Shown here piece by piece: positions 4,341 through 19,234 of a DNA stretch of 23,268 bases (the stretch's first letter is position 1; every line of letters starts with the position of its first letter). The notes beneath the pieces are model-generated. The model was not told the origin of the DNA. It made no database searches and saw only the letters and a list, made by a program, of their open reading frames with translations. The stretch covers positions 1 to 23,268 of IMG/VR virus record IMGVR_UViG_3300031957_000828; one strand, written 5' to 3'. Origin of the DNA: a virus. A program made the translations under genes and the position numbers.

Positions 4341-5450
4341 ATGAATAGTTCAAATGTTTATAATAGAAAATTATTTAAAAGAAACGCAAGAAATAAATTA
4401 AGTGAGATGGGTGGTGTTGATCCTAATTTAAGTGGGATCATGAGATCTTCTCCAGAACTTATAAATGCTGCTGTTGCAGCTATTCCTATTAGAAACACTG
4501 GTCAAGGAACTGCTCCGCCTCAAACTAATATGACAATGACTCCTCAAACTAATATGACAATGACTCCTCAAACTAATATGACAATGGCTCCTCAAAAGAA
4601 CATGGCGATAGGTGGTCCAATTGATATTGGTAAAGCACCATTGACTCAAAAACAAAAAACAAAAGGTTCTAAACTTGCTGAAGGATTAGGTTATGGAATA
4701 TCCATGTTAGCAAATCCAGAAGCAAATAATGCGCTTGCATCTATTCAAGCTGGACTTGGTGGGGATGCTGTAGCAGAAGGAAAGTTAGCTGCTATTGCTT
4801 CTGCCTATGATCAAAACAGTCCGCCAAAAGTTGTATCTGATACAATAACAAATGCTGTTGGAGCTCCGAATACTAAAAAAGGATTAGAAGAAACGGCAGA
4901 GTATGTGACTGGAGAACCAGTACCTAAAAACGCTACCATCAATGAATTAAATCAAAAAATTATGCAAGCCTCTATAGGTGGTGCAATAGCAGGTCCAAAT
5001 AGTGTAGGCGAACGTATATCTAAAGCAGTTCTTTTAGGACTAGGAGAAGCCAAGAAAACGGAAGCCGCTAGACTTGCGGCTATAGCAGCGGCAAAGGCAA
5101 CTGCTCCTGAAGCAAGAAACTACCGTCCTCCATTAGATGCGTATCAAGATATTTATAAGGCTGCTTTAGCAGATACATCAGCTATTTTAAAAAGAGATGA
5201 TGGAACTGAAATGACTCAAGCAGAATATGCAAACTTAACTGCCTTGCAGACCATAGTAAGTTCTTATACACCTCAACAATTAGTTGGAACACAATTCCAA
5301 GGTATACACGGGGGTGGTACACAACCACCATCTAGTACCACACAGGCACCAGTAGATACAAAAGGACATGTTGCTGCTAACAACGCAGCAAAAGCAGCTG
5401 GAAAAACAACATACACTTTTAATGGTGAAGAATTTAACGTTCAAGGATAA
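4341..5450 (+). CDS. Probable internal virion protein with tandem PQTNMTMT repeats
   Basis: A 369-residue protein starting one base after the previous stop, with AGAGG about eight bases upstream of the ATG. Residues about 60-90 consist of an eight-residue unit, PQTNMTMT, present three times and then a degenerate fourth time. Beyond this the protein is Ala-rich and helical (for example near residues 230-260, with runs of AAIAAAKA), and the C-terminus is Thr/Gly-rich before KTTYTFNGEEFNVQG. I do not recognise a named family. Its place between two probable ejection proteins, and the low-complexity Ala-rich composition, point to a virion core component. No catalytic motif is visible. Confidence 0.55.
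   Translation: MNSSNVYNRKLFKRNARNKLSEMGGVDPNLSGIMRSSPELINAAVAAIPIRNTGQGTAPPQTNMTMTPQTNMTMTPQTNMTMAPQKNMAIGGPIDIGKAPLTQKQKTKGSKLAEGLGYGISMLANPEANNALASIQAGLGGDAVAEGKLAAIASAYDQNSPPKVVSDTITNAVGAPNTKKGLEETAEYVTGEPVPKNATINELNQKIMQASIGGAIAGPNSVGERISKAVLLGLGEAKKTEAARLAAIAAAKATAPEARNYRPPLDAYQDIYKAALADTSAILKRDDGTEMTQAEYANLTALQTIVSSYTPQQLVGTQFQGIHGGGTQPPSSTTQAPVDTKGHVAANNAAKAAGKTTYTFNGEEFNVQG
4518..4607 (+). repeat. 24-base in-frame tandem repeat (3 copies plus a partial)
   Basis: The unit begins CCTCAAACTAATATGACAAT and is 24 bases long. Copies one (4518-4541) and two (4542-4565) are identical, copy three (4566-4589) differs by one base, and a diverged 18-base fourth copy follows (4590-4607). Each copy encodes PQTNMTMT, so gain or loss of a unit keeps the frame. 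This is a candidate slippage or length-variation site in a virion protein. Confidence 0.9.
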
Positions 5451-8400: not shown

Positions 8401-9701
8401 CAACTTTTGGTGTTCTTACTCCTACTTTAGCAACTCTTGCTTATAAGCTGTCTGGTGTTGGTAGAGATGAGATGAAGGCTTATCAACGTTCCTTTGCTGC
8501 AGACTGGGAAAAAAATGCTACGTTAATTCCTACAGGGAAAGATGAAGAAGGCAATATAGAGTATATAAATTGGAGCACTTCTAATCCTTATGACACTCTT
8601 GTGAGAGCTTTTAACGGTGCTATGAATGCTATAGGAACTGGAAATAAATTAGATCAATCTGTACCAGTAATTACGGCAAATGTTATAGGTCAAGCATTAA
8701 AAGAAACTGCGGAACCTTTTCTTTCTCAATCAATGGTTGCTGAAGCATTAATAGATGTGCTTCCAGAGGCAATGGCAGGAAGAGCTGGAAGAACTATGAC
8801 AGGAGCAGAAGTATATAATCCACAAGATTCTTTAGGGACAAAAGGTGCTAAAGGTCTTACTCATATTTTTGGCAGTGTTCTACCAAGTGTTATTCCAGTT
8901 AAGGTAAGTCGTGGAGAAATTGAACCTAGCAATTTTGCTCGTGGGTTTGTAGGCACTTTTGCTCCTAATATAATTAGTCCAAAAACCAGAACTGGAGTAG
9001 AAAAAGATTTAACAGAACAATTAATTAGGACAGTTTTAGGAGTAACTCCTTTAAAGTTTGAACCAGAAAAAGGTCTTAGATATAAAGCATACGAGCTTCA
9101 AAGAGAGCAAACAGATGCTAAACGTATTTTTAACGGTGAAACAAATAATTTTAATGCTACCCCTAGAAGTTTTATAAAAAAATATACAGACGCTAATGAG
9201 GCAAAATTTAAGACTGATAAAGTGTATCATCAAATGATTGAAGATCTTAGAACTATGGGTGTTAGAGATAATGAGATCCGAAAAGTATTTAAACGTTACA
9301 GTATCGGTGGTGTTGATGGTATTATGAGAGGAAGGTTTGAACCTTTTGAAATAAATAAAAATCATTACAGAAACATGAACGACACAGGAACACGTTCGTT
9401 GTTTCCTAGACAAGAAATAAACACACTAAGACAAGAGTATCGAAAAAGACGTTTTTTAAAAAACGAAGAGCCAGAACAAGTGAGTACAAATAATGTTCAG
9501 TCTAATACAACATTTCAACCTGTTGTGAGTGCTCAAGTTCCGCCGTCAAGCTTTACTCCAACTCCTGTCAGTCCGCAAAATACAAGACCATCAAGCTTTA
9601 CTCCAACCCCTGTGAGTAGAAATGTTGATCCATCGTTGTTAGGATCAGACCCTATCTCTCAAGCAGCAAATGCTCAGATAGCTAGACGACTCAACACCTA
9701 A
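5460..9701 (+). CDS. Large internal virion / DNA-ejection-type protein
   Basis: At 1413 residues this is the largest gene in the window and the last of the late block. The N-terminus carries SFVPIPV twice (residues 6-12 and 20-26); residues about 45-160 are Gly/Ala/Val-rich with several moderately hydrophobic stretches; the middle is Lys/Asn-rich and helical; a hydrophobic segment (TTFGVLTPTLATLAYKL) lies near residue 980-1000; the C-terminus carries PSSFTPTPVS twice and ends DPISQAANAQIARRLNT. I see no lysozyme, transglycosylase or protease motif. Size, position and composition match the giant internal virion proteins of podoviruses that cross the cell envelope during DNA ejection. The gene converges with the polymerase gene, overlapping it by four bases. 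Role assigned by context and style, not by an identified domain. Confidence 0.6.
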   Translation: MADEASFVPIPVEKEVVTESFVPIPVNQTGTTDRGIRNTAESEGVLNEFQEGVMSGLVGIGQGIGELAALPVDIALDTDLSSKVTEGAEAIRDYAGLDPVGIVGGGAEVVTQFVLPAGKGISLVNKASKAKRAAKGLKDVPLTKSERFGLALKEIGAAGIADVIVSSDGTTSIGDFFEGGITQTDKTIGLEGRAEALRRVKNRLKFGAEAAAIGSIAELGLRGTGLVGQKAVAPAIKAGAQTATGQGLIKGITKYPKQLIQKLDDLETRRTTAMPGSSQELSGGQKIFVDLIGTTRYRGLLPDAIATEKLLTSSRIKPHIDKAETTLNRLNKNLDSVLKNLSPSETAVRKSEILNQINDYLTNPLKKRTPKAGQRLLSPPPQSVTQTPKTSNSTSQNFINSLPKEIRADVKAMRNHVDTLSTDIKNSNFLRDNDFINKTTGKSIKDVIEDNLGTYLRRRYRVFEDAKYTPDAKTTKIADDFFKTNKDFTESELNKVLKSSPQDLNANVATRIGVTINNGRATVGASVTDEAARIARENFLRRYKVKNRGATSGGRVASERLNTKMFLEKQTLPPQLRKFLGEVDDPRDAYLGTVADLAEFKAVDDFFGKTKFLADNDEGIGKLFINPTKLNQTQLKEMLDSGDYVQLGGKNGRSTLLGEGAAEGVEETLNRSGWGSLYGYVVPETVYKNLTNSILAPDDVINQMALSAWGGFLKVKAGSQYSKTILSPVTQVRNLLSASLFAAAQGNIGKGANLYDSLRLVLADLSSRPTDELLEELADMNRRGVLGTQAEVREIQDMLRKGAGYRESNASSAVEGLFGKKITDIKAVKKGAAVLKKAEDVYTASDDLWKIYNYTFEQNKLRNALDSLSMEDKVKYLTSNLTDVEKAMQRSALNSSNPDLVIKNLIKDRAASIVRETVPNYNKAPEIIRAARKLPVGNFITFPYEIYRTGFNTLKQGLDEFASEIPGVRKIGIRRLTGAITTFGVLTPTLATLAYKLSGVGRDEMKAYQRSFAADWEKNATLIPTGKDEEGNIEYINWSTSNPYDTLVRAFNGAMNAIGTGNKLDQSVPVITANVIGQALKETAEPFLSQSMVAEALIDVLPEAMAGRAGRTMTGAEVYNPQDSLGTKGAKGLTHIFGSVLPSVIPVKVSRGEIEPSNFARGFVGTFAPNIISPKTRTGVEKDLTEQLIRTVLGVTPLKFEPEKGLRYKAYELQREQTDAKRIFNGETNNFNATPRSFIKKYTDANEAKFKTDKVYHQMIEDLRTMGVRDNEIRKVFKRYSIGGVDGIMRGRFEPFEINKNHYRNMNDTGTRSLFPRQEINTLRQEYRKRRFLKNEEPEQVSTNNVQSNTTFQPVVSAQVPPSSFTPTPVSPQNTRPSSFTPTPVSRNVDPSLLGSDPISQAANAQIARRLNT
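5475..5537 (+). repeat. Direct repeat encoding SFVPIPV at the N-terminus of the large virion protein
   Basis: The 21-base stretch at 5475-5495 recurs exactly at 5517-5537, spaced by 21 bases. Both copies encode SFVPIPV. The related motif SFTPTPVS is repeated at the other end of the same protein. Confidence 0.9.
9543..9617 (+). repeat. Direct repeat encoding PSSFTPTPVS at the C-terminus of the large virion protein
   Basis: A 30-base unit at 9543-9572 recurs at 9588-9617 with three third-position substitutions, so the encoded ten residues are unchanged. Synonymous-only differences suggest the peptide itself is kept by selection. Confidence 0.85.
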
Positions 9702-11608
9702 CCAACCTCGCCCCAGTTATCTCCTAGTTCCTCGTCTACCTTAGAGGGAACCTTGAGGACATGATCCAAGCCCGTCTCCATAATCTTCGTGATCCTCGTT
9801 GCTTGCTCCTGGTTCTCTACTGAAAAGCACAGTTCGTCATGCACCGTGAGCATTGGAACAAGGCCTTCCTTATGGCAGTCCGCCATTGCCTTCTTAGTTT
9901 GGTCAGCAGCACTGCCCTGTATAAGTTTGTTCAGAGCCTTGTAAGTAAAGGCGCGTCTCAAGTTCATACCGTATTCTTTCTTGGCATCCTCAAGACTCAT
10001 AGGTTTGTTGTACCCAAAGCTCTTGGGTTCCCAAAGATGAAACCTGCACTTGCGTCCCAAGAGTGTGCGAATAACGCCGTGGTTCTGTGCCTGTGCGCTT
10101 GCAATCTCCGCTAGGCCTTTAACAAAAGGAGCCTTAGTGTGGTGCGTTTCAAGTAGTTCTTTCGCATCCTCCTTTGTGACAGCCAACTGGTTGGCTAACT
10201 TAGCCACGCCCATTCCGTACATAATCCCAAGGTTCACGGTCTTGGCTTCCTTACGTGTGATCCCTGCAAAGTCTGCCACCATCTGGTGTAGATCCACATC
10301 TCCTGTGTGGTACTCATCCACAATTGTATCAACCATCGAGTGCTTGCGTGAGTCCGGTAGGCTTGCTGCAAAGTGCACCAAGAGCCTTGGTTCTTGGCTT
10401 GCGTAGTCAAACGATCCCCACTTGCACCCCTCATCAGGAATAAACAAGCCTCGGATTAGTTTCTTAATAACAGGATCTCTTGCAGGAAGCTGCTGTAAGT
10501 TAGGGTTGGAGCTTGAGAACCGCCCTGTTACAGTGCCTCCGTCATCGGATCTAAGTTGGTGAAACTCCGCATGTATCCTACCTTTGTGCTCATAGCGTAG
10601 TATACTGTCAATGAATGTACTGTCTGCTTTGTCTGCCTCACGCAGTTTAACAATCGCCTGGGCTACTTCGTGTGGATGGGAGGACAGGTACTGCTTGGTA
10701 AAGGATGGTGCCCCTGCTTCCGTCTTAGGATACTTTAGATCCAACTTATCAAACACCGTCTTGACTGACGCCCCTGCCCACGGTTCTATCTCTATGCCTG
10801 TCTTGTCTTTGATAAACGCACGTAGCTCCTTGGTTCTAACTTGCAATTGTTTCTTTGCTATGTCCGCCTGGTCAATGTCTACTCGAACACCTCTCTGTTT
10901 CATCTGCACCATCAAAGGTATCAGGCTTGTCTCCAACTCCCACACGTTCCAAAGTTCCTGCTTGTCTAATTCAATTCGCAATCGCTCCCATAACTTGAGC
11001 GTCATCACGGCGTCTTGCTCGGCATAGGCTCCCACTGTTGAAGGTGGTAGGATCCACATGTCTGCCTTTGGATCGATACCCCAGTCCTTTGCTGTTGCTC
11101 GAAGCAGCCGCTCGTCTTTCCTCATGTCAATCCAATCACGGCCTAAGTTGTTTAGGCTGTAGGAAAATCTGTTCTCGTCAACGATAGCTCCTGTCACCAT
11201 TGTATCAATGATCCGACCTTGTATATCAACGCCCTCCGCACTTAGCCAACCTGCATCGTAGGTCGCATTGTGCATGACCTTATCTATGTGAGGTGTTGCC
11301 ATCTGCTTCTTGAACCATTTCATCGTAACCTTTGGATCTAGGTTGTGTCCGTTCTGGTGCCGGATAGGAAAGTACCCATAGTAATCCCCTGCTGCAACAG
11401 CGATGCCAACGATAAACCCATCGTTCCTTGCCCACCCTGGGCCAAACTTCTTTAGGTTGGGGTCGCATGTCTCAAGGTCTACGGCTATTTGTTTATATCC
11501 TGTAAGGTCTGGATACTCCGTTGGTATGTTCCAATCCTTGTCAATAATATCTATATCCATGCGCTCAAGATAATTTATTGTACTCTTGTCTTTACGGTCT
11601 CTTGCCAT
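9698..11608 (-). CDS. polA: Family A (Pol I-type) DNA polymerase with 3'-5' exonuclease
   Basis: Replicative phage polymerase, 636 residues from the ATG at 11608. That start is chosen because GGAG precedes it by ten bases and its A is shared with the upstream stop (TAATG); a longer open frame back to 11710 only overlaps the upstream gene. Proofreading motifs: Exo I D44/E46 (AVDLET), Exo II N114-D118 (HNATYD), Exo III Y195-D199 (YAEQD). Polymerase motifs: TGRFSSSNPNLQQLPAR at 361-377, motif A D401 (DYASQEPR), motif B K456-Y464 (KTVNLGIMYG), motif C H590-D591-E592 (VHDE). No 5'-3' nuclease domain is present, as usual in phages. The residue matching E. coli Pol I Phe762 is Leu460. The last gene of the replication operon. 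Confidence 0.97.
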   Translation of the reverse strand: MARDRKDKSTINYLERMDIDIIDKDWNIPTEYPDLTGYKQIAVDLETCDPNLKKFGPGWARNDGFIVGIAVAAGDYYGYFPIRHQNGHNLDPKVTMKWFKKQMATPHIDKVMHNATYDAGWLSAEGVDIQGRIIDTMVTGAIVDENRFSYSLNNLGRDWIDMRKDERLLRATAKDWGIDPKADMWILPPSTVGAYAEQDAVMTLKLWERLRIELDKQELWNVWELETSLIPLMVQMKQRGVRVDIDQADIAKKQLQVRTKELRAFIKDKTGIEIEPWAGASVKTVFDKLDLKYPKTEAGAPSFTKQYLSSHPHEVAQAIVKLREADKADSTFIDSILRYEHKGRIHAEFHQLRSDDGGTVTGRFSSSNPNLQQLPARDPVIKKLIRGLFIPDEGCKWGSFDYASQEPRLLVHFAASLPDSRKHSMVDTIVDEYHTGDVDLHQMVADFAGITRKEAKTVNLGIMYGMGVAKLANQLAVTKEDAKELLETHHTKAPFVKGLAEIASAQAQNHGVIRTLLGRKCRFHLWEPKSFGYNKPMSLEDAKKEYGMNLRRAFTYKALNKLIQGSAADQTKKAMADCHKEGLVPMLTVHDELCFSVENQEQATRITKIMETGLDHVLKVPSKVDEELGDNWGEVG

Positions 11609-11862
11609 TAATCTTCTCCACCCAGTGCAGCGTAGCCACAGATGTCCACCCAACTGTCCTCGTGTTCTGGTGTCTCGATCAAACGTGATACCTTTAATTG
11701 CACCAGGCATAAATACACCTGGTCAACTGTTATGTCTTGTCCAAGGATCACCGACCATAACCTTGCCACACGCATGTGGTTTACGGTTGCGTCACCATAG
11801 TCCTTGGCTCTGGGACCATTGATGTAGCCCTCTGCTTTTTGTAGTATTTCTTCTCGTTTCAT
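11608..11862 (-). CDS. DUF6378-type small phage protein
   Basis: An 84-residue protein. The start at 11862 follows AGAGGTAAAT and gives MKREEILQKAEGYI; an upstream ATG at 11919 lies inside the neighbouring gene and lacks a ribosome site. Conserved features are GPRAKDYGDA (residues 16-25), LWSVILG (35-41) and a C-terminal HEDSWVDICGYAALGGE (67-83). I recognise this pattern as DUF6378, a family common in phage replication and nucleotide-metabolism neighbourhoods whose biochemical role is not established; the D/H/E-rich pattern recalls helical MazG- or HD-like pyrophosphatases, but that is a guess. It is translationally coupled to the polymerase (TAATG). Confidence 0.75.
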   Translation of the reverse strand: MKREEILQKAEGYINGPRAKDYGDATVNHMRVARLWSVILGQDITVDQVYLCLVQLKVSRLIETPEHEDSWVDICGYAALGGED

Positions 11863-13016: not shown

Positions 13017-14546
13017 TCATATCTCATACCTGTATTTCTTGATTGATTCTAAAATGTGTAAGTTCTTCTTGGTTCTTGTAACGCCCACATAAAACGCACG
13101 ATGCTCATCGTCTGGATACTTGCTCTCAGTACAAGCCTTCGTTGATCCTGTATAAACTAAACAGTTGTCATCCTCCCCACCCTTCATCGCATGAAACGTA
13201 GACAACTTAATGCGAGGCTTATCCATAATACTCTCCCCTGATTCCTCAATAACCTCAATGTATAACCTATCATCTCGACCCAAGTTCATTATAGAAAAAC
13301 AACTACGATCTATCGGTGCCTTCATCCCATAGTCTTGAACCAAATCGTTATAGCTTAACGAACCATCCTCCGGTGCTGCCTCCAACAAGGTACTCGAACC
13401 TCGCTTCACAACCGCACCGTCTCCCTGTTTGGGCACATTCTTATACAGGTTCTTAATTAAATGCACCCCAACGCGCTCACCTCCCTGCAAACGACGCCAT
13501 ACCTCTATGCCCTCCGCTACCTCTGGCTTTATACTAGGCCTTCCTTTTATGCTGTACAAAAACCCAAAGTTCCTAATCTGATCAGCGAAGTCTGATACGT
13601 AGCTGTTGGTTCGAGCCATGATAGTCCACGAACCTTGCTCTAATGGAACACTTCCAAGACTGTTGTGCCAAGTAACCGAGCCTTGTTCTTTAGCTGGTGC
13701 AAACTCCTTTATCTTCCTAGTACGTATGCGTTTAACAATACGCTTGGAAAGATTAAACACTGCCACTGGCATTCGATAAGACTTGGTAAGGATTTTTACT
13801 GTATCAGAAGATTCCAAAAACTCGTTCACATCAACCCCTGTCCAACGATGTATTGCTTGGTCGTCATCCCCTGCAAGGTAAACCTTCTCTGCTCTCGTAG
13901 ACATGCGATCAACCATCTCCCACTGCACTGGCGTTAAGTCTTGTGCCTCGTCAACGATCAGTAGATCCAAGTAAGGTGGTTCTGCTATATCAATATAATT
14001 CTCTATGAAATCTGCAAAGTCTACCTTCTGCATCTTGCTCTTGTATTCTTGCAGCTGTTTCTCAACCTGTTCTAATTTAGAAAACCAAATTGTATAGTTC
14101 GCCGCTTCGTTATACTCCTGCTCCAACGAAATCCTTCGAGACCGAGCACGAGACACCATATCAAGGTACATTTTTCCTGACCCACCAATCTGAACTTGAG
14201 GCAATCCATCGTCAGGAGACACTCCATCCTTGCTGTCAATAACAACACCCAACAACTTACCCAACGCTTTGTAGTCTTTGGCCTTCATCAAATCGTCTGA
14301 CTGCAACCCAAGTCCCCAAAAGGCTGTGGCATGTAGCGTTTTAAAGTGGGGCAGCTCCTTCTCTGTTAAAGAAAACTTGGAGCAAGCACGTTCAATAGCT
14401 TCGGCAATCGCCTTACGTGTAAAAGAAATAAAGGCAATCCTAGAAGGATCGCCCCCATTGTCTAAATACTCTTGGATAATCTCCATGAGTGTGTAAGTCT
14501 TACCACAACCAGGTGGCCCAAAGATAATGGTGCTATTCTTTATCAT
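13017..14546 (-). CDS. UvrD/Rep-like superfamily 1 DNA helicase
   Basis: A 509-residue ATP-dependent helicase. Motifs in order: Walker A GPPGCGKT (residues 10-17), motif Ia-like FISFTRKA (39-46), motif II DEAQD (199-203), motif III GDDDQAIHRW (226-235), motif V STFHAMKGGE (449-458) and motif VI VGVTRTKKNLHIL (487-499). All are intact, so an active 3'-5' translocase is expected. It is shorter than UvrD (about 720 residues), as is common for phage versions with reduced 1B/2B domains. The ATG lies inside the end of the AlpA-like gene (14-base overlap) with AGAGG eight bases upstream. It probably serves as replicative or recombination helicase next to the primase. Confidence 0.93.
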   Translation of the reverse strand: MIKNSTIIFGPPGCGKTYTLMEIIQEYLDNGGDPSRIAFISFTRKAIAEAIERACSKFSLTEKELPHFKTLHATAFWGLGLQSDDLMKAKDYKALGKLLGVVIDSKDGVSPDDGLPQVQIGGSGKMYLDMVSRARSRRISLEQEYNEAANYTIWFSKLEQVEKQLQEYKSKMQKVDFADFIENYIDIAEPPYLDLLIVDEAQDLTPVQWEMVDRMSTRAEKVYLAGDDDQAIHRWTGVDVNEFLESSDTVKILTKSYRMPVAVFNLSKRIVKRIRTRKIKEFAPAKEQGSVTWHNSLGSVPLEQGSWTIMARTNSYVSDFADQIRNFGFLYSIKGRPSIKPEVAEGIEVWRRLQGGERVGVHLIKNLYKNVPKQGDGAVVKRGSSTLLEAAPEDGSLSYNDLVQDYGMKAPIDRSCFSIMNLGRDDRLYIEVIEESGESIMDKPRIKLSTFHAMKGGEDDNCLVYTGSTKACTESKYPDDEHRAFYVGVTRTKKNLHILESIKKYRYEI

Positions 14547-14754
14547 AGATCTTACCTCTTGGCCGAGAGTTGACCCAATCCTCTATCTCTGTAAGCACCC
14601 ACCTACTGGCAGTACGCTTGTTGGACTCGTCTCCTAGCACTAAGGGTTGAGGGAAATCCCCTGCCTTAGTCCATTTGTATATTGCTGATGTAGATACGCC
14701 GAGCAGTTCAGCTACCTCCGACACACGCAACAGTCGATTAGAAGGGGATGTCAT
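14533..14754 (-). CDS. AlpA/excisionase-like HTH DNA-binding protein
   Basis: A 73-residue protein with one winged-helix MerR/AlpA-type domain: LLRVSEVAELLGVSTSAIYKW (helix-turn-helix, about residues 8-28), then GDFPQPL and a short wing ending WVLTEIEDWVNSR. GGAGG lies six bases before the ATG. The gene starts inside the last codons of the primase gene (17-base overlap), so the primase tail codons are read in two frames. In phages this fold serves as transcription regulator, excisionase or replication accessory; with no integrase visible, a regulatory or replication-initiation role within the operon is more likely than excision. Target site unknown. Confidence 0.85.
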   Translation of the reverse strand: MTSPSNRLLRVSEVAELLGVSTSAIYKWTKAGDFPQPLVLGDESNKRTASRWVLTEIEDWVNSRPRGKIYDKE

Positions 14755-16270
14755 CTGAAACCTCCGTGATGTTTAAGTCTATTACTTCCTCCTCGAAAGC
14801 AGGAACCCACCATACTCGAAGCGTGGATCTCTTTCCATCCTCGCGATTTATATTCTGATGCCCATGAGCCTCCGCTCCATTGTTTAAACTCTTCAAGGCT
14901 TCTTGGACTTGTGCCCTGTTGTAGAAAGTAAAATGTCGGTTGTGCAAATATAACATAAGACCAGAGATTGTGAACCTTGTTAATCCGTCCTCGGTCCAAG
15001 GCTTTCCCATCTCTAGTTCTTCGGGCACCATAGCCTTTATACGGCTCGTACAGTAGGCTCTAAGGTGTTCCTTAAACTGACCCACCATCGTGAGCTCTTC
15101 GGGCACCTCAAGGTACGTAGCACCCAACATTAGATTACTGACCGTGGCTTGCCATGTCTGTGCTTTAACTGTTGGTGGCATAATATTAATCTGCTCCATG
15201 CAAGCACGTTGCCAAAGCGTTTGGTTCTGTAGCTGTTCTGTTGAAAGCTGCACACGCTTCCCACCTACATCCATGAAGTACAATCGAGGCTCAGACAAAA
15301 GAGTTGTAAGCCCACCCATCTGTGGCATGTCTGGTTGATCCCCACCAACACCGTACTTCTTGGTCTTGCAAATCTCCTTATCGCAGTAACTCTTGAAGGG
15401 TTCCTGCTCACAGGTATAAAAGTATTCTTTCTTGTTCAGTGATTTAACTAGGTTTGTTACCTCTGTCGCTGGCAACGGATCCGCACATAGCGTTCGATTG
15501 ATGTCTTCAAACTTTGACACCCAGTCATCGGGGTTCTTCATCCGGCAATATACACCGCACATAAACAACGTTTTGTTTCGCTCCTCGGATATCTGACCCT
15601 GGCTCGTGATGTGTTGAAGGCAGGGCGGTCCATCTGTAAAATACTTTCTTGGTCCACCTAGCTGCATGGACTCCAACTGGTTTAAGGCTACACGCTCAGA
15701 CTCAATCAGGTTTAAGAACTTGTCTAGCTCTAAGGCCTCACCCTTTGCATTGAACCCATAGCGCATGGTTTCTTCTGCTTTAAAGTATGGGATGTTAATA
15801 AAGTTACCAACATCCCCTCGCTCTGCTAGGATTGAATCTTGTTTGGGAAAGATCTCGCACCCAGAAAACCCTAGTGCAATAGACATCTCCGTCAGGTACT
15901 CACGTATAACGGAGGCCTGTTCGTATTCTTTTAGAAATAAATATAAGTGTGCCCCACCGGACTTGGATCTACAGTGAACCAAGGGGAGCTTTAATTTATA
16001 TATCTTTTGTGTAAGAGATTTATGATCTAGGTCATACGTGTCAATGTCCAGTGCTCCAAACTTGCACATGTTATTTTCATTGATCGGTATAGCACCCACA
16101 CCTTGAACACCATCGATGTGTTCTTGTATCTTCTCAACAGTCATAGGCTCTCGAACGATCCGGCTATCTGCTTCAGCCTTTCCGTTCCTTCCTACTCTTC
16201 CAACCGTCGTCGTACCGTGTGCCACGGTTGACCCTTGAAAAGCTTTCATAAGTCTTTCTGCATAAGACAT
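14738..16270 (-). CDS. Archaeo-eukaryotic-type primase (TOTE primase-polymerase-like)
   Basis: A 510-residue protein. The catalytic AEP core is visible: metal-binding D75-I-D77 (FGALDIDTYD), the SGGAH motif S104-H108 (CRSKSGGAHLY), FPKQ at 141-144 and the GNFINIPY sugar/NTP-site motif at 155-162. This arrangement is the one I know from TOTE-conflict-type primases. A Cys cluster (YTCEQEPFKSYCDKEIC) around residues 292-308 may bind zinc. The C-terminal part is probably all-helical and unassigned; no helicase Walker motif is present, so unwinding must come from the separate UvrD-like or SNF2-like proteins. The last residues, DDIPF, copy the SSB-type tip. AAGGAT precedes the ATG. A terminator sits just upstream. 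Confidence 0.85.
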   Translation of the reverse strand: MSYAERLMKAFQGSTVAHGTTTVGRVGRNGKAEADSRIVREPMTVEKIQEHIDGVQGVGAIPINENNMCKFGALDIDTYDLDHKSLTQKIYKLKLPLVHCRSKSGGAHLYLFLKEYEQASVIREYLTEMSIALGFSGCEIFPKQDSILAERGDVGNFINIPYFKAEETMRYGFNAKGEALELDKFLNLIESERVALNQLESMQLGGPRKYFTDGPPCLQHITSQGQISEERNKTLFMCGVYCRMKNPDDWVSKFEDINRTLCADPLPATEVTNLVKSLNKKEYFYTCEQEPFKSYCDKEICKTKKYGVGGDQPDMPQMGGLTTLLSEPRLYFMDVGGKRVQLSTEQLQNQTLWQRACMEQINIMPPTVKAQTWQATVSNLMLGATYLEVPEELTMVGQFKEHLRAYCTSRIKAMVPEELEMGKPWTEDGLTRFTISGLMLYLHNRHFTFYNRAQVQEALKSLNNGAEAHGHQNINREDGKRSTLRVWWVPAFEEEVIDLNITEVSDDIPF

Positions 16271-16286
16271 GTGTATATCCTTGAGG

Positions 16287-16327
16287 AAAATAAAAAAAGG
16301 AGGGAAGTGTTTGTGGCACTCCCCTCC
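16287..16327 (-). terminator. Strong Rho-independent terminator between the SSB-like and primase genes
   Basis: Read on the minus strand: an 11-pair stem, GGAGGGGAGTG with CACTTCCCTCC (plus-strand arms 16317-16327 and 16299-16309, one G-T pair), a seven-base loop, then TTTTTTTATTTT. It lies 12 bases after the SSB-like stop and only 16 bases before the primase ATG. All features of an intrinsic terminator are present; whether it stops all or part of the transcripts cannot be seen. Confidence 0.9.
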
Positions 16328-16339
16328 GAGGGCTAACGC

Positions 16340-17119
16340 TTAAAACGGAATGTCATCGTCTTTCAAAGGAGCTGTGGGCGTCTCCTCCGGCGTTGCCTTT
16401 ACCTCACCTGCCATAATAGATTCACGAAAAGCTTTTCCCGCTAACATGATCTCCATATCTGCAAAACCTTGGTTCTCAAGTTGGTAGTTATTCCATGAAC
16501 CTTGGTCATTGCTTTCTTCGGTGGTTGTAAGTTTCCACTTAGTTGTAAAATTAGCAGGAGTTATCATACCTTTCTTAGGATGATTAATCTTTTGCATAGC
16601 TATCTGTGTCTTCCATCGTCTGCTTACTTTAAGTTGCGTAGACTTCATATCAACAACAGCTGGTTGGTAGGAGCCATCTGGATCAACAACTAAACAAAAG
16701 TTCTGATCAGACTTAACAAGCTCGTTACCATTTGGTAAAATCTCTTTCGCTCCAGAACGTTGAGTCTGTTGCAACAAAGGATCGTTAGCCGCTAGCTCAC
16801 CTTGAAAGCCTCCACCAGAGTCTCGAGGAATAAATTCCAGATACTTAGTAGACTGGTAGCAAGGCACAACAATAATACCTTCCTCACCAGACCAGAACTG
16901 ATTGGTAACAGTATTAAACATGTCACCTTGTTCTGCACCCTCAATGTACTCTGGTTTCTTTTTATTCAACTGTGGCGACAATGCTTGCAATACCCTTATA
17001 AAAGGTATTTGCATCTCGCTACTGTCAAAGGAAGCACCCTCCCCAGCAGTTTCCAACATATAATCAAGAACATCCGCAGATACTGATGTGCCCTTTGCTT
17101 GTGCTACTTCATTTGCCAT
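16340..17119 (-). CDS. Probable single-stranded DNA-binding protein with SSB-type DDDIPF tail
   Basis: A 259-residue soluble protein. The core (about residues 30-230) is a mixed beta-rich region with many aromatic and basic residues (SRRWKTQIAMQKINHPKKG near 165-183), compatible with an OB-like or other ssDNA-binding fold; I cannot match a named family. Residues 236-259 form an acidic, Pro/Thr-rich linker ending KDDDIPF, the same tip as E. coli SSB, which recruits replication and repair enzymes. AGGAGGAAAG precedes the ATG, the best ribosome site in the operon, and the start shares a base with the upstream stop (TAATG). Position beside primase and polymerase fits SSB. The binding activity is inferred from tail and context. 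Confidence 0.65.
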   Translation of the reverse strand: MANEVAQAKGTSVSADVLDYMLETAGEGASFDSSEMQIPFIRVLQALSPQLNKKKPEYIEGAEQGDMFNTVTNQFWSGEEGIIVVPCYQSTKYLEFIPRDSGGGFQGELAANDPLLQQTQRSGAKEILPNGNELVKSDQNFCLVVDPDGSYQPAVVDMKSTQLKVSRRWKTQIAMQKINHPKKGMITPANFTTKWKLTTTEESNDQGSWNNYQLENQGFADMEIMLAGKAFRESIMAGEVKATPEETPTAPLKDDDIPF

Positions 17120-17679
17120 TATGCTTTCCTCCTAATTTCAGCTGCGTTGGCTATAAATGCCCCGAACATATCGAGGTCAATTGGTTTTCCTTCCGTTACA
17201 CGCTCCTTAACAAATGCTTTTAAGGTGCTCGGATGGATGTGGGTCTTTGATACTGGATCAAAACCCTTGTCTTTCAGGATACCAACGACGTCTCCTGCAA
17301 CATTGTCTTGGCCTTTGCCAAAAGATACAGTGATATCATTCTTTATAATATCATCGAGCTTCTGGGTTCTTAACCATTCATAGGCCTCTTCTCTACGACT
17401 AACAGGTATCGATGCATGCACCATCATCTTGCGTTGTACAGTCAAACCGTCAACATCAAGACGGTCAATGCCCATCTCATCCATTAATCCTGGTATACTC
17501 TCTACCGAAAGTCTGTGCTTTTCTTTCTTCAGACTCTTAAGTAAAGTATCTGCGTCCTCAATCTCACATTCAACTTTTCGGAGCTTTCGGACTAGGTCGC
17601 TCAACGTGCGACCTGTATCTGTGTTGATGTCTGCGACAGCAGCTTGTTCATCGAACAGGTCTTCAAATATATCTTCCAT
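17119..17679 (-). CDS. Coiled-coil phage replication-module protein, function unknown
   Basis: A 186-residue protein that opens the replication operon. Residues about 20-62 are a charged heptad-type coiled coil (LVRKLRKVECEIEDADTLLK and onward). The second half contains IPGLMDEMGIDRL, a run on SRREEAYEWLRTQ and the segments IKNDITVSFGKGQ and HPSTLKAFVKER, which I remember as a conserved pattern in many phages next to ssDNA-binding proteins, without a proven role. AGAGG lies about nine bases upstream of the ATG. It is coupled to the SSB-like gene by TAATG. A structural or loading partner of the replication machinery is a reasonable inference; no enzyme motif is visible. Confidence 0.75.
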   Translation of the reverse strand: MEDIFEDLFDEQAAVADINTDTGRTLSDLVRKLRKVECEIEDADTLLKSLKKEKHRLSVESIPGLMDEMGIDRLDVDGLTVQRKMMVHASIPVSRREEAYEWLRTQKLDDIIKNDITVSFGKGQDNVAGDVVGILKDKGFDPVSKTHIHPSTLKAFVKERVTEGKPIDLDMFGAFIANAAEIRRKA

Positions 17680-17755: not shown

Positions 17756-19234
17756 ATGAGTGTCAAATATAAAAATAAATTAAAGTTTAAATTAAAACCT
17801 TACGACCATCAACTTAAAGCATTAGACAAAGGACTTACTCGAGTAGAGTACGGGTTCTTCATGGAGATGGGTACAGGGAAAAGTAAAGTCCTGTTAGATA
17901 ACATAGGCTATTTGTTTTTAGTAGGTCAAGTAAACTTTGCTTTAATCATCGCACCCAAGGGCGTGTATCGTAACTGGGTGTCTAAAGAAATACCAGAGCA
18001 CATGTCTGATGACGTGCCCCATCGTGTAATTAGATGGGTAGCTTCTCCCAATAAAAAAGAACAGGCAGAGATGCGCTCGGTCAAAGAACCTTTTGCCGGA
18101 CTAACCATCTTTGTTATGAATGTTGAAGCGTTCTCCTCGATCAAAGGCAAGAACGCAGGGGATTGGATGGGAAACAACCTGGGTGGAAATGGTCTTATCG
18201 CAGTGGATGAAAGCACCACAATTAAAAACCACAAGGCCAAACGAACCAAGGCTCTATTAAAGATAGCTTTAAAGTTTAAGTTCAGACGATTGTTAACGGG
18301 ATCCCCCATAACTAAATCACCTCTAGATATATATAGTCAAACAGAGTTTCTTCGAGCAGGGCTTCTTGGATACGATAGCTACTATGCTTTTCAAGGCCGC
18401 TACGCTGTATTGCAAAAGAGAAAAATGGGTGCCGCTGCATTCACGCAGGTCATCGGATACCGAAACCTGGACGAACTATCAGATAGAATAGATATGTTTA
18501 GCTACCGCGTACTTAAAAAAGACTGCCTCGACCTACCCGAAAAGATATACACAGTTCGATACGTCGGCATGTCCGATGAGCAGTTTAAATACTACGAGCA
18601 AATAAGAAACCACGCTATGGTTCTCTTTGACAATGGTGAAATGACCACGGCTCCTGCTGTAATTACCCAACTTCTACGATTGCAACAGATACTTTCTGGA
18701 CATTTAAAAACTGATGACGATGAAATGATTACGTTCCCTTCATCTCGGCTCAATGCCTTACAGGAAATAATTAATGAGTACGATGGTAAAGCAATCATCT
18801 GGTCTCGATTCCGTCATGACATAAGGCAGATCACCGAAACTCTAAACAAAACCTTTGGTTCAGGGTGTGCCGCCTCATACTTTGGCGATACATCTGATGA
18901 TGAACGTAACCAAATCGTGCAAGACTTTCAGAATCCAAACCATCCACTAAAGTATTTCGTGGGTAATCCAGCAACCGCAGGGTACGGCTTAACTTTGACC
19001 GAAGCTAATCTTGTGGTATACTACGCCAATGACTTTAATCTGGAAACTCGTATCCAGTCAGAAGACAGGGCCCATCGTATCGGTCAACACAACCCTGTTA
19101 CCTATGTAGATCTAATCAATGAAGGCACGATTGACGAACGAATAGTCAAGGCTCTTCGAGCCAAGATAGATATAGGTGCAAAAGTATTAGGAGAGGAAGC
19201 AAGAGAATGGCTAACACTGAAACCAAAAAAGTAA
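17756..19234 (+). CDS. SNF2/SWI2-type superfamily 2 helicase-translocase
   Basis: A 492-residue protein from the ATG at 17756, chosen because GGAG lies six bases upstream and the conserved domain begins at once; the frame is open for another 109 codons upstream, but that part is antisense to the divergent gene. Motifs: Q-like YDHQ (16-19), Walker A MGTGKSK (38-44), motif II DEST (151-154), motif III LTGSP (180-184) and motif VI QSEDRAHRIGQ (434-444), the last being the SNF2-family signature. Two RecA-like lobes and no accessory nuclease or chromatin domain. In phages such proteins remodel replication forks or displace proteins from DNA. It is the only early-type gene besides its partner on the plus strand. 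Confidence 0.93.
   Translation: MSVKYKNKLKFKLKPYDHQLKALDKGLTRVEYGFFMEMGTGKSKVLLDNIGYLFLVGQVNFALIIAPKGVYRNWVSKEIPEHMSDDVPHRVIRWVASPNKKEQAEMRSVKEPFAGLTIFVMNVEAFSSIKGKNAGDWMGNNLGGNGLIAVDESTTIKNHKAKRTKALLKIALKFKFRRLLTGSPITKSPLDIYSQTEFLRAGLLGYDSYYAFQGRYAVLQKRKMGAAAFTQVIGYRNLDELSDRIDMFSYRVLKKDCLDLPEKIYTVRYVGMSDEQFKYYEQIRNHAMVLFDNGEMTTAPAVITQLLRLQQILSGHLKTDDDEMITFPSSRLNALQEIINEYDGKAIIWSRFRHDIRQITETLNKTFGSGCAASYFGDTSDDERNQIVQDFQNPNHPLKYFVGNPATAGYGLTLTEANLVVYYANDFNLETRIQSEDRAHRIGQHNPVTYVDLINEGTIDERIVKALRAKIDIGAKVLGEEAREWLTLKPKK

Follow-up and report, generated by a model that had tools for sequence, protein, structure and literature searches.

Introduction

In phage T7 the single-stranded DNA-binding protein (SSB) gp2.5 ends in DEDGDF and gp4, the primase-helicase, ends in SNDTDF; the SSB and the primase of one phage, although non-homologous, thus carry the same aromatic tip (DF) on a flexible tail, and docking of the gp4 tails on basic patches of the DNA polymerase gp5 has been shown (PMC12593628). 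The SSB of Escherichia coli ends in DDDIPF, an end bound by the primase DnaG and other proteins (PMC5872125). In phage T4, partner proteins including Dda are recruited by the C-terminal region of gp32, for which binding to the protein's own site for single-stranded DNA has also been suggested; Dda is bound by residues 248-270 in the form of a helix, not of a terminal tip (PMC11551737). Here we describe a locus in 23,268 bases of a virus record (a marine phage; IMG/VR record IMGVR_UViG_3300031957_000828, positions 1 to 23,268; this whole stretch is the window below), in which a Gp34-like protein, probably the phage's SSB, and an AEP primase end in the same five residues, DDIPF. We consider it fairly probable, judging from sequence comparison, that one phage-encoded socket reads both tips, linking SSB and primase.

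The likeness to T7 lies in the matched tips of SSB and primase; the locus differs in that Gp34 has no detectable homology to gp2.5, the primase may be of AEP, D5 or VapE type, the tip residues of Gp34 phages vary by lineage (PF, PY, IV, EL), and the polymerase family is not constant. The window tips recall the bacterial SSB C-terminus, the Gp34-like protein ending in KDDDIPF, a form not kept in all clades; unlike bacterial SSBs, Gp34 lacks a PF00436 match, and whereas in E. coli the primase reads the SSB tip, in Gp34 phages the primase wears it. A model of Gp34 aligns with the gp32 core, but the two proteins have no sequence link. Among titles and the beginnings of abstracts, we recognized no report of a primase from a phage that carries a tip like that of SSB.

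Results

The two proteins are encoded on the same strand, with a gap of 69 bases between their genes.

16340..17119, minus strand: Gp34-like protein, 259 amino acids (open reading frame); predicted OB-fold single-stranded DNA-binding protein with a disordered C-terminal tail
16343..16357, minus strand: tip DDIPF at the C-terminus of the Gp34-like protein (sequence)
14738..16270, minus strand: AEP (TOTE/CAPP-like) primase, 510 amino acids (open reading frame)
14741..14755, minus strand: tip DDIPF at the C-terminus of the primase (sequence)

A first-pass annotation, made from the letters of the window, had reported that an SSB-like protein ends in KDDDIPF and the primase in SDDIPF, and had called the two non-homologous. 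Both endings were confirmed by reading the open reading frames (ORFs) and the sequence (APLKDDDIPF and ITEVSDDIPF), and the absence of homology is borne out as well, in that BLASTP between the two proteins finds DDIPF alone and a profile-profile comparison gives a probability of 1.2%.

Conservation of the terminal residues, a check that the same annotation had proposed, was found in close homologues: among close IMG/VR relatives, [IV]PF ends all 78 distinct ORFs for Gp34 and 81 of the 84 distinct ORFs for the primase. Among the three remaining primases, one ends in YPF, and the ORFs of loci L074 and L079 look truncated and frameshifted, respectively. Since 4 of 3480 distinct ORFs of at least 150 amino acids, taken over all loci, end in [IVLM]PF, the shared tip exceeds chance. 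In the 18 representatives of clade A the last three positions of Gp34 and the last two of the primase are invariant, and the residues preceding them vary. The third base of the tip proline codons varies in both genes alike, and the terminal phenylalanine codon is variable in Gp34 and TTC in 18 of 18 clade A primases. These codons bear on a further first-pass claim, that the tail codons of the primase also serve as the start of a downstream gene:

14533..14754, minus strand: AlpA-like helix-turn-helix gene (PF05930, E 7.6e-12)

The double use is real, because the ATG of this gene, at 14754-14752, falls within the two aspartate codons of the tip. We rejected the overlap as the cause of tip conservation, since tips persist where there is no overlapping AlpA-like start and the third base of the proline codons varies.

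Few other proteins of these phages end in this way. In searches of whole genomes, Gp34 and the primase were the 2 of 57 called genes of ct3Et533 that end in PF or PY with no more than one residue after it, and the 2 of 86 called genes of HTVC027P that end in [DNE][IV]V; 3 of 90 called genes in DSL-LC04 carry its pattern, the third being an ORF of 62 amino acids. The first-pass description of an SSB-type DDIPF holds for the window's clade, whose tips are acidic. It does not extend to related clades that lack the acid or even PF, yet there the two proteins still match; tips of the DSL-LC04 clade, for example, are basic or neutral (KRSPF, GPAPF).

This matching across lineages is the second line of evidence. 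The 525 sequences surveyed comprised 443 loci with a Gp34 hit and 510 with a primase hit; 414 loci could be paired, that is, had both proteins on one contig with both stop codons, ORFs cut by a contig end being left unpaired. An IMG/VR scan gives at most 80 loci, and because clades near the queries are in consequence over-represented, we clustered at 75% primase identity. This gave 70 clusters and, after locus L494 (a Gp34 hit without a tip) was left out of the tree and the tests, 69 representatives; L074 was also left out of the comparison of columns. Gp34 tips among the representatives are PF in 49, Leu/Ile/Met in 8, PY in 5, F without P in 4, Val in 2 and PF plus one residue in 1; primase tips are PF in 35, absent in 11, F without P in 10, Leu/Ile/Met in 7, PY in 3, Val in 2 and PF plus one residue in 1. 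The two classes agree in 50 of the 69. Where the Gp34 tip departs from PF (20 of 69), the primase has the same class in 15 of 20, and the matched pairs, written Gp34/primase, include PY/PY, DIV/NIV, acidic-Leu/Ile/Met and PFA/PFV. Independent evolution simulated on the tree gave a mean of 1.73 such matches and stayed below 15 in all 5000 runs (p=0.0002); p stayed between 0.0003 and 0.0007 when clades E/F, clade C or both were removed and on trees built from the primase or from Gp34 alone.

A second control set the class of the Gp34 tip against 2158 variable columns, which largely share the same phylogeny, drawn from UvrD, PolA, the gp33-like protein, the SF2 helicase, the Gp34 core, the primase core and the last 12 positions of the primase. 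By mutual information, position -2 of the primase comes 5th and position -1 comes 7th among the 2158, and they are equalled by 1 of 577 and 1 of 540 entropy-matched columns, respectively; the ranks of positions -3 to -6 are far lower. The association has a direction: the primase alone carries a tip in 0 of 69 representatives, and Gp34 alone in 11 of 69.

The third line comes from 22 named phage records (loci L115-L136), chosen by Gp34 or primase hits, in 10 of which the primase is not of the AEP type: six are D5-type (phrog_1829 class) and four VapE-type (phrog_4630). The primase ends in F in 8 of these 10 records (D5-type 4 of 6 in PF, VapE-type 4 of 4 in F), against a background of 3.5% of 1556 ORFs; we attach no p-value to the 8 of 10, because the ten records fall into few lineages. 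The three terminal residues in these eight, those of Gp34 given first and those of the primase second, are as follows.

Pam3: PPF and EPF
Ab18: APF and DPF
LKO4: PVF and PPF
Bordetella phage MW2: PVF and PPF
PB1: EEF and EDF
AV128: EEF and DEF
Serratia phage MTx: EQF and GAF
XcP1: DNF and DAF

Gp34, the gp33-like protein and the SF2 helicase (Helicase_C) each occur in 22 of the 22 records, and PolA in 18 of 22. The 12 of 22 records that have UvrD are exactly those that have the AEP primase, which hints that AEP primase and UvrD-type helicase form a functional pair. The corresponding genes of the window are these.

9698..11710, minus strand: family A DNA polymerase, candidate tip reader by analogy with T7 (PF00476, E 1.7e-60)
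13017..14546, minus strand: UvrD-like superfamily 1 helicase, candidate tip reader (PF00580, E 7.6e-27)
17119..17679, minus strand: Pam3 gp33-like protein, DUF7307 (PF23984, E 3.3e-27)
17756..19234, plus strand: SNF2-type superfamily 2 (SF2) helicase, divergently oriented, candidate tip reader (PF00176/PF00271)

The Gp34-like protein is a member of the family Pam3_Gp34 (PF23977; E 2.2e-64, 218 bits against a curated cut-off of 27), its sole match in Pfam, and of phrog_2402; both entries are listed without a function in their libraries, and 504 phage records match the family by tblastn. The Pfam match spans residues 9-241, so the tip falls beyond the model. An AlphaFold2 model (61 homologues) has a mean pLDDT of 83.5 and a confident core, with residues 246-257 under 50; the 61 sequences supplied for this protein and the 53 for the primase came from clustering 271 and 317 usable ones, respectively. 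The first-pass label "SSB-like" stands by predicted fold, its sole support. When Foldseek candidates were realigned by VIA, the top match of the model was the phiC31 RDF (Z 8.7, 155 residues, root-mean-square deviation 3.9), followed among others by the T4 gp32 core (1gpc; Z 6.7, 154 residues, deviation 4.8), RB69 gp32 (Z 6.5), BRCA2 (Z 6.5) and many SSBs at Z 3-4; by the notes of that program, a Z under 8 may reflect merely a common arrangement. Foldseek of the model against the PDB gave nothing at E<=0.001, and a Gp34 profile against PDB sequences gave nothing significant. Against viral models it matched chiefly uncharacterized phage proteins, with one named single-stranded DNA-binding protein at rank 25 (E 6.8e-05). 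No PF00436 protein was found in the 22 Gp34 phage records, VP2 and K298 included; these two carry a separate annotated SSB, in phrog_7364, that ends in DDDIPF. Gp34 is probably the phage's single-stranded DNA-binding protein, with an OB-fold core.

The primase is an AEP primase of the AEP-TOTE/CAPP-like kind. It matches PF22548 (E 1e-14) and the primase family phrog_21866 (E 8.5e-92), and residues 1-207 align structurally with the CAPP Prim-Pol 7nqf at Z 20.8. D75, D77 and H108, which we take to be the catalytic motif, are invariant in 53 sequences. The AEP domain is what it shares with CAPP and AEP-TOTE proteins; it differs from them in an extra middle part that bears cysteines, in a C-terminal part that weakly matches other DNA-protein domains (best 2ipq, Z 6.8), and in the putative docking tip.

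Two further proteins with such ends were noted. The Dinoroseobacter phage R26L, one of the genomes covered by a search with tip patterns picked per genome from the Gp34 end, some of them loose, has a tipless AEP primase and an ORF of about 400 amino acids (L590:10029-11240, minus strand) that ends in DDEVPF, identical to its Gp34 end; this ORF belongs to phrog_8203 (the annotated coding sequence has 359 amino acids), and its homologues in LKO4 and Bordetella phage MW2 are without that end. In Pam3, gene 35 (L124:6971-7363, plus strand; 130 amino acids, no family match) ends in LDDIPF and lies directly after Gp34, which ends in DDPPF.

Discussion

The two tips, their conservation, their covariation and their recurrence on unrelated primases are observations on the sequences; from them we infer single-stranded DNA binding by Gp34, a shared pocket, its identity and its function. 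Gp34 would have an OB-fold core, from which a flexible tail leads to a short docking tip, and the replicative primase would wear the same tip, copied, at its C-terminal end. If the same phage-encoded pocket reads both, a change of the pocket in a lineage would be expected to bring a change of both tips along with it. The purpose might be to recruit the primase at the fork to single strands coated by SSB, where primase and SSB would exchange. As a pattern such a shared socket is well supported; as chemistry it is unproven. The first-pass suggestion that both proteins dock on one partner gains indirect support from the covariation and from the same pattern on unrelated primases, and of the two kinds of partner it had allowed, a host SSB-binding protein or a phage protein, the latter is favored.

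Several observations weigh against a common socket. The tip classes were set post hoc, after the tips had been seen. Counted over all 414 pairs, 257 match in class and 157 do not, the mismatches falling mostly in two clades (71 PY/xF of 023Pt-type, 68 PF/no tip). By normalized mutual information the primase tip columns rank 40th and 54th of 2158, and sister (independent) pairs drawn with treekit number 4-5 per trait, all neutral or concordant, with a median p of 0.25-0.5, so that independent changes are few. In VP2 and K298, Gp34 ends in Met and the D5-type primase has no tip; in the dropped L494 the direction is reversed, the primase ending in APFA beside a Gp34 without a tip. The fold evidence for Gp34 as an SSB is moderate (Z 6.7-8.7), and neither a profile comparison with T4 gp32 nor a comparison with T7 gp2.5 gave a sequence link. 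A search for the reader among columns that follow the tip class returned top columns scattered over UvrD (N314), PolA, the primase and the gp33-like protein, with no evident pocket, and we draw nothing from it; N314 lies in a stretch that is presumably helicase motif IV. Finally, the 11 representatives with a tipless primase (8 HTVC023P-type and 3 Nanhaivirus) have a Gp34 that ends in PF. A tailless primase beside a tailed SSB-like protein, with no effect on partner binding, is what the first-pass annotation had named as telling against a common partner; its sequence half occurs in these 11 of 69. Such primases show that the tip is dispensable on the primase in two lineages, not that it is without a role elsewhere.

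The 023Pt-type loci (L123:1802-3346, plus strand, and relatives) are peculiar in another respect. Their Gp34 ends in TPY. Their primases have a Y, often as PY, slightly upstream of the stop (by a few residues) and a terminal F after it, as though an earlier tip that matched the one on Gp34 had later been extended.

Where would a shared pocket lie? We put forward tentatively, at rather less than even confidence, that it is on Gp34 itself, the primase imitating the SSB's own tail. That a primase tip should fit the site of the SSB's own tail would follow naturally from the suggestion that the C-terminal region of gp32 binds gp32's own site for single-stranded DNA. As a first guess at other sites we would name the remaining members of the constant set, the SF2 helicase or the gp33-like protein. 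A broader form of the idea, possible but doubtful, is a lineage-specific tip code in which a primase of any family (AEP, D5-type or VapE-type) takes the tip of its own SSB and enters the SSB filament by imitation, the pocket again being on Gp34. The phage DNA polymerase, in the manner of T7, where the tails of SSB and primase-helicase both act on gp5, is an unlikely reader. The T7 precedent itself and the presence of PolA in most Gp34 records speak for it, but PB1, XcP1, AV128 and Serratia phage MTx have no PolA match and yet have F-ending tips on both proteins (the last three have annotated Pol III alpha polymerases, and the DNA polymerase annotated in PB1 is given no family), and the basic or neutral tips of the DSL-LC04 clade are ill-suited to a basic patch on a polymerase. 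Since both proteins have tips even in records where PolA has no match, and with any of three types of primase, Gp34 or its constant companions are weakly favored over the polymerase.

The canonical DDIPF of the window's clade could also mimic the end of the host SSB, as the binding of DnaG and others by the E. coli tip would allow, and dock on host partners such as DnaG, HolC, RecO or PriA. This we regard as improbable. The Pelagibacter phage HTVC027P ends in DIV/NIV and loci in Pelagibacterales genomes in PY/PY, the acid is lost in whole clades, and the three Pelagibacterales SSBs that we read end in DDDIPF or DDEIPF, unlike the matched DIV or PY tips of these phages or phage-like loci. Because pelagiphage tips left DIPF while these SSBs kept it, it is unlikely that host partners alone read the tips, and a host protein as the only reader was set aside. 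Separate readers for the two tips, with the match arising by convergence on a generally useful hydrophobic C-terminus, would account for the many tips that are plain PF, a common SSB-like end, and for mismatches of the M/F and PY/F kind. We hold this to be very improbable, given that simulated independent evolution yields far fewer matches than are seen and that a P[FY] ending occurs in none of the listed PolA, UvrD, SF2 and gp33-like proteins of 16 phages.

If a common phage-encoded socket is the right reading, in many phages outside the T7 group a single short tip, interchangeable between the two, may connect SSB with primase, and a large unannotated family, Pam3_Gp34, gains a likely function. 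The lineages would offer matched tips in a natural series, open to swaps aimed at finding the shared partner, and matched ends may help to recognize primases and SSBs in uncharacterized phages.

Other Features of the Locus

The gap between the Gp34 and primase genes holds one further element.

16299..16327, minus strand: terminator-like hairpin, a stem of 11 pairs followed by a T-run

Its folding energy is -22.6 kcal/mol (z -3.56). Visual inspection shows GC-rich hairpins, different in sequence, in the same gap in many of 60 representatives, and this recurrence suggests a conserved brake that would hold the primase below the SSB. Elsewhere in the window, the ORF at 4341-5450 (plus strand) carries a short in-frame repeat of TNMTM-type units near its start.

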